Positions 27,531-31,774 of a DNA stretch of 55,805 nt are shown one piece after another. Both the position numbers and the translations under genes were made by a program. The number at the start of each line of letters is the position of its first letter. Within the stretch, counting starts at the first letter, position 1. A model generated the notes under the pieces. It ran no database searches. It was not told the origin of the DNA and was given only the letters and a program-made list of their open reading frames with translations. Origin of the DNA: Nitrospinaceae bacterium (GTDB taxonomy: Bacteria > Nitrospinota > Nitrospinia > Nitrospinales > VA-1); assembly GCA_029261695.1 (NCBI GenBank), contig JAJDAV010000039.1, positions 1-55,805 of the forward strand. Direction: 5' to 3'.

Positions 27531-28151
27531 TTAAACGTAAATAGAATAGGGGTAATCTTCAGATTCTTTAAGAGCCATTTCTTCGCGGGTGGGTATTAAT
27601 CCATTGATAGCCCCAAAGAGATTGAGGTCGTCATATCCCAGGAATTGTTTTTGCTCATGGGGTAGGGAATTGAAATGATCTTGATCTGTCATAAAATTTA
27701 ATTCAAAAAAATAATTGCTGAGAAAATTTTCAAAATGAATAGGGTGTGCCTCCAATTCAGGCAGGGAATTGATTCTTTCGCTATCATTGTCATGATTGTA
27801 ATTAAAGGTGAAGCGAGCTAAAACGTCATAGAGAAAAGAATAATGATAAGAGTTCATATACTGCCATTTGGAAGAATTTTCCAGGCCGTTTTCTAATATT
27901 TGACAGATTTGTTCCAGGTAATTAATAGAATTTGTTTTTCCTGAATAGGGGTAGAACTGCAATAAGTCTTCTCTCCAATACGGCCGTGGTTGTCGTAGTA
28001 TAAAAGACATTATCTCTTTGTCTTCGCTCAAGGCAACTTGGATAAAATGGTGTGGGTCGAATCGCTCGTTATAATCCGCATTGGGCGTGACAATAACATT
28101 CGATTTGTTCAAATTGAAGGGTTCGTAAATATTGTTTTTGAAAACAAGCAT
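27531..28151 (-). CDS. Hypothetical protein, paralogue A of the pair flanking GPx
   Basis: A 206-residue soluble protein of a family I do not recognise. It shares with the gene at 28825-29424 the start ML(V/I)FK(N/K)NIYEP, an NS..YH..LYD helix, a PEL motif, F..FL.NYFF and LFG.IN.L.P..EE. It is rich in aromatic and acidic residues and has no signal peptide. It lies downstream of a divergent gap shared with the glutathione peroxidase gene. Its function is unknown. It would be transcribed towards nnr. Confidence 0.72.
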   Translation of the reverse strand: MLVFKNNIYEPFNLNKSNVIVTPNADYNERFDPHHFIQVALSEDKEIMSFILRQPRPYWREDLLQFYPYSGKTNSINYLEQICQILENGLENSSKWQYMNSYHYSFLYDVLARFTFNYNHDNDSERINSLPELEAHPIHFENFLSNYFFELNFMTDQDHFNSLPHEQKQFLGYDDLNLFGAINGLIPTREEMALKESEDYPYSIYV

Positions 28152-28247: not shown

Positions 28248-28820
28248 TTGAAACAATCCATTTATAACATTAATGTTAAAACCATTTTTGGAGAAGAGCA
28301 AGCACTCTCGCGATTTGAGGGCAAAGTTTTACTAATTGTAAATGTTGCTTCTCAATGTGGGTTTACTCCGCAATATTCGGGTCTGCAAAAACTTTACGAA
28401 AAATATAAGGATAGAGGATTTCGTATTTTAGCCTTCCCTAGCAATGATTTTGGTCGTCAAGAGCCTGGAGAAAATAAAGACATCAAGACATTTTGCATAA
28501 AAAATTATGGGGTTTCCTTTAATCTTTTTAGCAAGGTCAAGGTTCTTGGCCCGAAACAGTCATCTCTCTATAAGTATCTGCATAAGTGTAGTTTGACTCC
28601 AGTAGGTAATACGGGGATTAAAAGTATTATAATGCGGTACGTAACGACATTTCTTCTGAAAATAAAAGGAGATACTACCCCAAAAGAGAATGAGGTGAGC
28701 TGGAATTTTCATAAATTCCTGGTCGATAAAAAGGGTTTTCCAGTGGCAAGGTTTTCAAGTGAAATTGAACCTGATTCACCCCTTTTGGTTAAACGACTGG
28801 AGGAGGAACTGGATAAGTAA
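28248..28820 (+). CDS. Glutathione peroxidase-family thiol peroxidase
   Basis: Reduces peroxides using a Cys (here, not selenocysteine) as the peroxidatic residue: NVASQCGFTPQY (Cys37). FPSNDFGRQEPG and SWNFHKFLVD (Trp and Asn of the catalytic tetrad) are present. Length of 190 residues is usual. Most bacterial members use thioredoxin as the reductant. The start is TTG with a strong GGAGAGGA. It is the only plus-strand gene between two minus-strand paralogues of unknown family, sharing divergent promoters with both sides only on its left. Confidence 0.92.
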   Translation: MKQSIYNINVKTIFGEEQALSRFEGKVLLIVNVASQCGFTPQYSGLQKLYEKYKDRGFRILAFPSNDFGRQEPGENKDIKTFCIKNYGVSFNLFSKVKVLGPKQSSLYKYLHKCSLTPVGNTGIKSIIMRYVTTFLLKIKGDTTPKENEVSWNFHKFLVDKKGFPVARFSSEIEPDSPLLVKRLEEELDK

Positions 28821-28824
28821 AAGA

Positions 28825-29424
28825 TTATTTACTTATATAAGGGATTTCAGTTGTTGTTTCTAGTCGAGACTCTTCTTCTGCGGGTGCTAATTGATTGATT
28901 ACTCCAAATAAGCATGGGTCGGTAAGTTTCAAGCTCTTTTTCTCCTCGGGATCCATATTGTTAAACCTTTCGGCATCCATCAAAAAAGCGGTGCCAAAAA
29001 AATAATTATCAAGAAACGCATCAAAGTCTATCGCGCTACCATTGAGTTCAGGAAATATCTCCAACCGCTGTTGAGGCTCTGAATAGCTATAATCCTCATA
29101 GGTTCCCTGTAAACTGTCGAATAGATAGGTTAGGTGGTAGGCATTTAGAGGATGCCACACGCTTTTGTTTATCAGGCCTTCGAATAAACTTCGGGAAAAA
29201 TTATTTAGCTGAGAAATGTTACTGAATTGAGAAGCATGAGGAAATAATGTTTTAAATCTTTCGAACCCTTCACTATCAGGTAATTGATTGAGGCCGAAAA
29301 ATATTTCTCGATCTGTCATTAAAGAGTGGAATATAAAATTATAAGCATCTAAGTCTTGGTTGACTAGGTTTTCTGGGTGCGGGGTTGCAGAAGGTTCGTA
29401 TATATTTTTTTTGAAAATCAACAT
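28825..29424 (-). CDS. Hypothetical protein, paralogue B of the pair flanking GPx
   Basis: A paralogue of the 27531-28151 protein. The track starts at 29484, but aligning the conserved MLIFKKNIYEP start puts the true ATG at 29424, preceded by AAGAGA. That gives about 199 residues with the same NAYHLTYLFD, PELNGSAIDFDAFLDNYFF and DPCLFGVINQLAP motifs. It has no signal peptide or membrane span. It converges with the glutathione peroxidase gene (4-bp gap between stops) and diverges from the UDP-glucose pyrophosphorylase gene. I do not recognise the family. Confidence 0.72.
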   Translation of the reverse strand: MLIFKKNIYEPSATPHPENLVNQDLDAYNFIFHSLMTDREIFFGLNQLPDSEGFERFKTLFPHASQFSNISQLNNFSRSLFEGLINKSVWHPLNAYHLTYLFDSLQGTYEDYSYSEPQQRLEIFPELNGSAIDFDAFLDNYFFGTAFLMDAERFNNMDPEEKKSLKLTDPCLFGVINQLAPAEEESRLETTTEIPYISK

Positions 29425-29501
29425 GTTAAAATTTCTCTTAGGTTTTGTTTCAGACCATTCAGTAAAATTAATTTTATCATACAAAGCTTAGATGGAGATT
29501 T

Positions 29502-31049: not shown

Positions 31050-31077
31050 TTGACATGTATTTATTCCTAAGTATACT
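31050..31077 (+). promoter_or_regulatory. Strong sigma-70-type promoter
   Basis: TTGACA (31050-31055), a 16-bp spacer and TATACT (31072-31077) are a near-consensus -35/-10 pair. Transcription should start near 31084, about 208 nt before the secreted-protein start at 31292. Confidence 0.65.
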
Positions 31078-31090
31078 TTGCTAATGTGCA

Positions 31091-31128
31091 GCCTAGGACC
31101 TATATTAAGCATAGGATAATTCCTAGGC
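31091..31128 (+). promoter_or_regulatory. 5'-leader hairpin (possible mRNA stabiliser)
   Basis: GCCTAGGA (31091-31098) pairs with TCCTAGGC (31121-31128), and inside it CCTAT (31099-31103) pairs with ATAGG (31111-31115), with a 5-nt bulge on the 3' side and a 7-nt apical loop. It would lie almost at the 5' end of the predicted transcript. Downstream, two Shine-Dalgarno-like tracts (GGGAGG at 31167, before an ATG-GAT-CTT-TGA mini-ORF at 31182; and GGGAGAAGG near 31208) lie before the true SD. Confidence 0.5.
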
Positions 31129-31291
31129 CCATTTGGTTTTGTTTTAGAGTAAAACCTTCAGTCGCTGGGAGGTAAAAGCAAATGGATCTTTGAAATGTTC
31201 ACTAAAAGGGAGAAGGTAAAGCTTTTGAATTTGCCTTATTTAGAATATTTGTAGGTGAACTTTTGTTAACTAGGGTAAGGGAGGATTTACA

Positions 31292-31723
31292 ATGAAAAAA
31301 CTCGCTATTGTTTTACTCGTTACCATCGCTTCATTTTGTCTCGCAGCTTCAGCATTTGCTGGTAGCGTAGCTCCGGGTGGAATGGCCAAATGTAACAACG
31401 CAGGTTCAATTACCATTGCAACTGCTAGTGGTGGCGATGCTGAAGATCGTGGCAATGCCAATGGCTACATCTGGAAGTCATCCAATTTCACGACTGTTCA
31501 ATTTACATTAGGGCCGAACGACCATCAGGGCTTTTCTGGTAATGGTGGAGGAGCAGCAGGTAATGATCAAGTGAAAATGCCGAGCAAGCACTCCATGGGT
31601 CACAATTCTATTACCTTTAAAGGTCAAAACAATTTCAGCCGCGGCGACTCCATTGGTGATATCAGTGGCGAAGTTCGCATTCACAACACTGGAACGGTTC
31701 CAGTAACTGTATCTTGTGGCTAA
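31292..31723 (+). CDS. Secreted Gly/Asn/Ser-rich hypothetical protein
   Basis: A 143-residue protein with a textbook signal peptide (KKLAIVLLVTIASFCLAASAFA, cleavage expected after residue 23). The mature part is Gly-, Asn- and Ser-rich (GGGAAGNDQ), beta-prone, and has just two Cys: Cys34 in AKCNN and Cys142 in VTVSCG, placed to make a disulfide joining the two ends. I do not recognise the family. The 5' signals (strong promoter, hairpin leader, GGGAGGA at 7 bp) and the strong terminator indicate a highly expressed monocistronic envelope or extracellular protein. Confidence 0.82.
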   Translation: MKKLAIVLLVTIASFCLAASAFAGSVAPGGMAKCNNAGSITIATASGGDAEDRGNANGYIWKSSNFTTVQFTLGPNDHQGFSGNGGGAAGNDQVKMPSKHSMGHNSITFKGQNNFSRGDSIGDISGEVRIHNTGTVPVTVSCG

Positions 31724-31740
31724 GATTTAAAAAGTAGGTC

Positions 31741-31774
31741 AAACCGCCCTGATTTTCATCAGGGCGGTTTTTTT
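31741..31774 (+). terminator. Intrinsic terminator
   Basis: AAACCGCCCTGA and TCAGGGCGGTTT form a perfect 12-bp stem with a 6-nt loop (TTTTCA), followed by a run of T to 31774. It begins 17 bp after the secreted-protein stop codon. The converging uppP gene ends 11 bp further on; on that strand only three T follow the stem. Confidence 0.9.

Follow-up and report, generated by a model that had tools for sequence, protein, structure and literature searches.

A Nitrospinales-specific family of exported proteins and the conserved leader of its probable high-output gene

What kind of unit is formed by a near-consensus promoter, a long leader, and a strong terminator around one small gene, and what is the exported protein that it encodes? 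We investigated this question in a 55,805-nt contig of a Nitrospinaceae bacterium (the window, meaning the whole stretch analyzed), in which a first-pass annotation had read positions 31050–31774 as a compact high-expression unit. Nitrospinota are the ocean's main nitrite oxidizers, and to our knowledge their envelope proteins have been little described. We consider it rather probable that the locus serves one gene only, as a high-output unit whose product is an exported envelope or extracellular protein specific to Nitrospinales, with a cis-acting, productive leader. The gene and its product comprise the following features.

31292–31723, plus strand: gene encoding an exported protein of 143 aa, rich in Gly, Ser, and Asn and with two Cys (open reading frame and family comparison)
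31292–31360, plus strand: predicted Sec signal peptide, residues 1–23, MKKLAIVLLVTIASFCLAASAFA, with an invariant Ala23 (predicted from the sequence)
31391–31393, plus strand: Cys34, invariant (family alignment; even mature Cys number in complete members)
31715–31717, plus strand: Cys142, invariant, adjoining the C-terminus (same basis as Cys34)

As the first-pass annotation had described, a signal peptide is followed by exactly two cysteines, Cys34 and Cys142, past the likely cleavage site. Its failure to recognize the protein family was also borne out: for the 143-aa protein, nothing in Pfam or NCBIfam came close to the cut-off, the best E-value in PHROGs (0.004) was not near it, a PDB sequence search gave no match, and curated profiles gave no match to a surface, pilus, or S-layer family. 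Phages, plasmids, and viral contigs were all without a match, which speaks against a mobile origin of the gene. In a profile search, a family member was found in 58 of the 64 genomes of the window's Nitrospinota order and in none of 13 genomes from other orders of the same class; orthologs among relatives are 84 to about 50% identical to the window protein, and the named loci with a member are those of Nitrospina, Nitrospinaceae, and Nitrospinota MAGs. The C-terminal half is near-invariant across the family (FSRGDSxxDIxG.V), and the stretch NFSRGDSIGDISGEVR is among the peptides of the family. The protein represents a new, uncharacterized, lineage-specific family, in a locus assembled from parts of known kinds. 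The literature searched, supplementary files aside, contained no proteomic or transcript record of the protein.

The number of cysteines in the mature protein is even (two or four) in all 66 complete members, drawn from two subfamilies. At loci L049, L050–L053, L072, and L073, where both subfamilies are represented, an inserted segment (KCKDTTQCVPGA or similar) brings a further Cys pair; because the extra pair arrives together with the insert, disulfides are favored, and a Cys34–Cys142 disulfide would close the mature domain. The mature protein was modeled with β-strands only in two AlphaFold runs, at a low-confidence pLDDT of 61–62 that is too weak for a fold claim, and Foldseek searches with these models gave no match at E ≤ 0.001. 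The product could plausibly be a structural protein, present in abundance in the periplasm, at the surface, or outside the cell.

The second subfamily, present as one or two genes that are often in tandem, is separated as a clade containing 22 of 22 members (support 0.999). Its full-length members are about 43–59% identical to the window protein and share with it the invariant C-terminal half and the Cys pair, whereas their genes lack both the consensus promoter and the leader. A NarL-type response regulator adjoins this subfamily in both loci read, one from the window's own genome (G000) and one from G010. In the former (L042; G000:C163:3500-7200), a tandem pair of paralogs of the window gene has as its neighbors a gene for a NarL/FixJ-type response regulator and a fragment resembling a kinase; in the latter (L045), a further small exported-looking protein of unknown family is encoded at 1525–1980, between the response regulator and the paralog. 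Separately, genomes G055 and G059 (family f5, genus g17) contain matches of NxrA length to molybdopterin oxidoreductases, and the secreted family is absent from them. An obligate tie to nitrite oxidoreductase was rejected on these grounds, although the NxrA search relied on a loosely defined family and does not amount to testing for NXR.

The gene is bounded by a promoter and a terminator.

31050–31077, plus strand: sigma-70-type promoter TTGACA-N16-TATACT (best match 11–12 of 12 in 26 of 29 ortholog leaders)
31084, plus strand: predicted transcription start, 7 nt past the -10 element (placed from the -10 position alone)
31741–31774, plus strand: intrinsic terminator, a 13-pair stem (31741–31770) with a T tail (kept in orthologs)

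The near-consensus promoter reported earlier is present, and its 16-nt spacer recurs in 27 of the 29 ortholog leaders. Such promoters are rare: the pattern TTGACA-N16-18-TATA(A/C)T, the window promoter included, has 14 sites in the 3.07-Mb genome versus none for the reversed pattern, and 14 versus two in G002. Two of the genome's 14 sites precede tRNA operons, and by our reading of the open reading frames others precede nuoA-like and nuoE-like (complex I) genes as well as genes for exported proteins. This rarity and class of promoter provide the best evidence that output would be high. Codon usage also places the gene near the top among the window's genes and is mildly ribosomal protein-like; because ribosomal protein genes barely separate from the rest in this weakly biased genome, codon bias is weak as a proof of abundance and was not adopted as one.

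At the other end of the unit, the terminator described as textbook was recovered, and a GC-rich terminator lies 3′ of the gene in every ortholog whose contig extends far enough. The strong start signal was likewise found, as GGGAGG followed by the ATG at 31292. Most loci keep the same neighbors, with UDPGP upstream and a convergent UppP downstream. Elsewhere in the window, two small proteins encoded on the minus strand at 27531–28151 and 28825–29484 share 34% identity (E 5e-35) and have no Pfam match; they flank a glutathione peroxidase-like gene at 28248–28820.

Between promoter and gene lies the leader, about 208 nt long if transcription starts near 31084, as had been proposed. Its elements are listed below.

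31091–31128, plus strand: 5′ hairpin in the predicted fold, with the inner dyad TAGGA-N4-TCCTA at 31112–31125 (fold prediction)
31182–31193, plus strand: mini-ORF M-D-L-stop (ATG-GAT-CTT-TGA) of the first-pass annotation, probably non-functional, overlapping the boxA-like motif
31185–31195, plus strand: boxA-like motif GATCTTTGAAA, differing from G[C/T]TCTTTGA[A/C]A at one position (matches the rRNA boxA of relatives)
31213–31237, plus strand: conserved leader hairpin H3, with GGGAG at 31208–31212 just before it (covariation, 22 leaders)
31268–31285, plus strand: near-invariant block with the Shine-Dalgarno sequence, AACTAGGGTAAGGGAGGA (ortholog leader alignments)

The first-pass annotation had staked its reading beforehand on conservation of the leader in relatives, and the leader is indeed conserved, the aligned sequences of the two nearest genera showing conserved islands on a variable background. 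It missed two of the conserved elements, the boxA-like motif and H3. Neither the ATG nor the reading frame of the mini-ORF is conserved among orthologs, and control by a leader peptide was discarded for this reason. The global fold of the leader is no better than that of shuffled sequences (z -0.58).

H3 shows double changes in nine of its 13 pairs, compared with a mean of 2.9 in shuffled alignments and with no value as high in 500 shuffles (22 leaders), and the pairing is destroyed by sliding the partners. The 22-leader alignment came from a covariance model and is therefore biased toward the modeled structure, and aligning only the hairpin with MAFFT gave a poor result. Since covariation within the 13 model-building sequences alone was not significant, the support for H3 is due to the more distant leaders. 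The 5′ hairpin emphasized earlier does appear as a stem in the predicted fold, but a covariation check found no compensatory changes: the dyad GTAGGA-N4-TCCTAC is paired in 87% of cells, is kept in sequence in genera g1 and g8, and shows zero two-sided changes, so that an RNA hairpin is not supported there. H3 and the invariant block around the Shine-Dalgarno sequence, rather than the 5′ hairpin, are the best-supported structure of the leader. The earlier interpretation accordingly stands in its outline, a compact strong unit for an exported two-Cys protein, now with order-wide conservation, and not in its choice of the 5′ hairpin and mini-ORF as the leader's key elements.

The core of the boxA-like motif, GTTCTTTGAAA, recurs as the presumed boxA of relatives, both in their 16S leaders and in their 16S-23S spacers; the reference sequences were those of relatives (G002, of the same genus, and others), as G000 has no 16S contig. 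Of 47 leaders, 11 contain the motif exactly and 18 contain it with no more than one mismatch, compared with dinucleotide-shuffle means of 0.065 (maximum 1) and 1.75 (maximum 8), respectively, a comparison that overstates significance because the leaders are related and not independent. The motif is found with at most one mismatch in 15 of 18 leaders of g1 and g8 (alignment A6), 99–121 nt from the start codon, and in some g7 leaders; none is clear in families f2–f4. Its absence from f2–f4 and from three of the 18 close orthologs means that a boxA role cannot account for the leader in general. In the window's own branch, the leader probably carries an rRNA-type boxA signal, with a putative boxA function.

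These elements admit several explanations. That the 5′ dyad is kept without compensatory changes would suit a repressor-binding operator in the DNA, immediately past the promoter, in place of an RNA hairpin. With only 1–3 copies per genome, not above a control pattern, the dyad has no regulon and was rejected as a repeated operator, and an operator of any kind at this site seems to us very improbable. A regulatory switch (riboswitch, attenuator, protein-binding element, or sRNA target) would account for a leader that is long, conserved, and provided with a covarying hairpin, and RNAalifold proposes that the TCCT of the 5′ dyad pairs with the Shine-Dalgarno AGGA. This pairing is, however, short and without double changes. 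An Rfam search of the window gave no match at the gathering score, which argues against a riboswitch or a known RNA, and the leader has no internal intrinsic terminator (the sole plus-strand terminator follows the gene), which argues against an attenuator. Moreover, a covariance model spanning H3 to the ATG (R1) located the ortholog leader once per genome, at this gene only, with no convincing second copy; the leader is thus gene-specific, and a regulon of repeated leaders was rejected. Without an Rfam family, a leader terminator, or a second copy, no evidence favors a switch over a stabilizer or an antiterminator. We regard a switch as unlikely, and leader-based control in the broad sense as possible.

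The boxA-like motif divides the remaining explanations. It may be due to chance or be otherwise constrained, with the leader acting as a plain mRNA-stabilizing long 5′ UTR like that of ompA. This has a substantial chance of being correct, albeit short of an even one: families f2–f4 lose boxA yet keep the long leader and promoter, and mRNA-stabilizing stem-loops in 5′ UTRs are known in bacteria (PMC7509114). It is opposed by the excess of matches within one mismatch over shuffles (again inflated by the kinship of the leaders) and by the steady position of the motif among close relatives. Alternatively, the motif may serve Nus-factor repression, as at E. coli suhB, which would tie synthesis of the protein to that of ribosomes. 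The boxA match is consistent with this, and boxA-mediated repression is documented for suhB and other mRNA targets (PMC5725501). The surveyed suhB-type sites, though, lie at most about 50 nt from the gene start, in contrast to 99–121 nt here with a hairpin between, and the strong promoter and Shine-Dalgarno sequence speak for high output; we find repression distinctly unlikely.

The reading that we prefer remains the dedicated high-output unit, and it could operate as follows. A constitutive, near-consensus sigma-70 promoter, belonging to the class that serves tRNA operons and respiratory genes, would produce an untranslated leader of ~208 nt, which in cis would sustain productive transcription and a productive message. 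The boxA-like site of this branch would probably load NusB/S10 and could shield the untranslated stretch from Rho, whereas H3, about 55–80 nt before the start, together with the invariant Shine-Dalgarno block, may hold the ribosome site open or delay decay. The strong terminator would close the unit, and signal peptidase would cleave the product to give a small, β-rich domain with a Cys34–Cys142 disulfide, which may serve as an abundant structural protein. We also entertain, as a tentative and somewhat doubtful extension, rRNA-style transcription of this lineage-specific envelope protein, in which a tRNA-class promoter and a Nus-loading boxA would couple output to ribosome synthesis.

A protein found almost order-wide, behind one of the genome's strongest-looking promoters, is a candidate major cell component and a candidate metaproteomic marker. 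Nus-factor control of mRNAs has been documented mainly in gammaproteobacteria, and boxA in this leader, if true, would bring a further phylum, and the gene of an exported protein, under such control.

Comparisons with known systems place the locus as follows. For the product, β-sandwich folds (the nucleoplasmin core and carbohydrate-binding modules) rank first in Foldseek with the low-confidence β-only model, at best E-values of 0.035 and 0.19 and with no sequence match, which is not evidence of membership. For the leader, bacterial mRNAs can be stabilized by stem-loops in their 5′ UTRs (PMC7509114), and the locus resembles the stabilizers of ompA, vacA, and recA in its long untranslated leader, stem-loops, strong Shine-Dalgarno sequence, and, further, in its exported-protein gene; in contrast to these, its covarying hairpin is internal and not 5′-terminal. 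Nus factors are also able to repress, as at E. coli suhB (PMC5725501). Relative to the boxA of rRNA and suhB, the NusB-NusE/S10 site, the candidate site in the window (i) precedes a gene for an exported protein, 99–121 nt upstream of the start, and (ii) as an mRNA-leader motif is confined to some members of a single family within the order, while sharing with that boxA its position in an untranslated leader and a core identical in form to the rRNA boxA of its own lineage.
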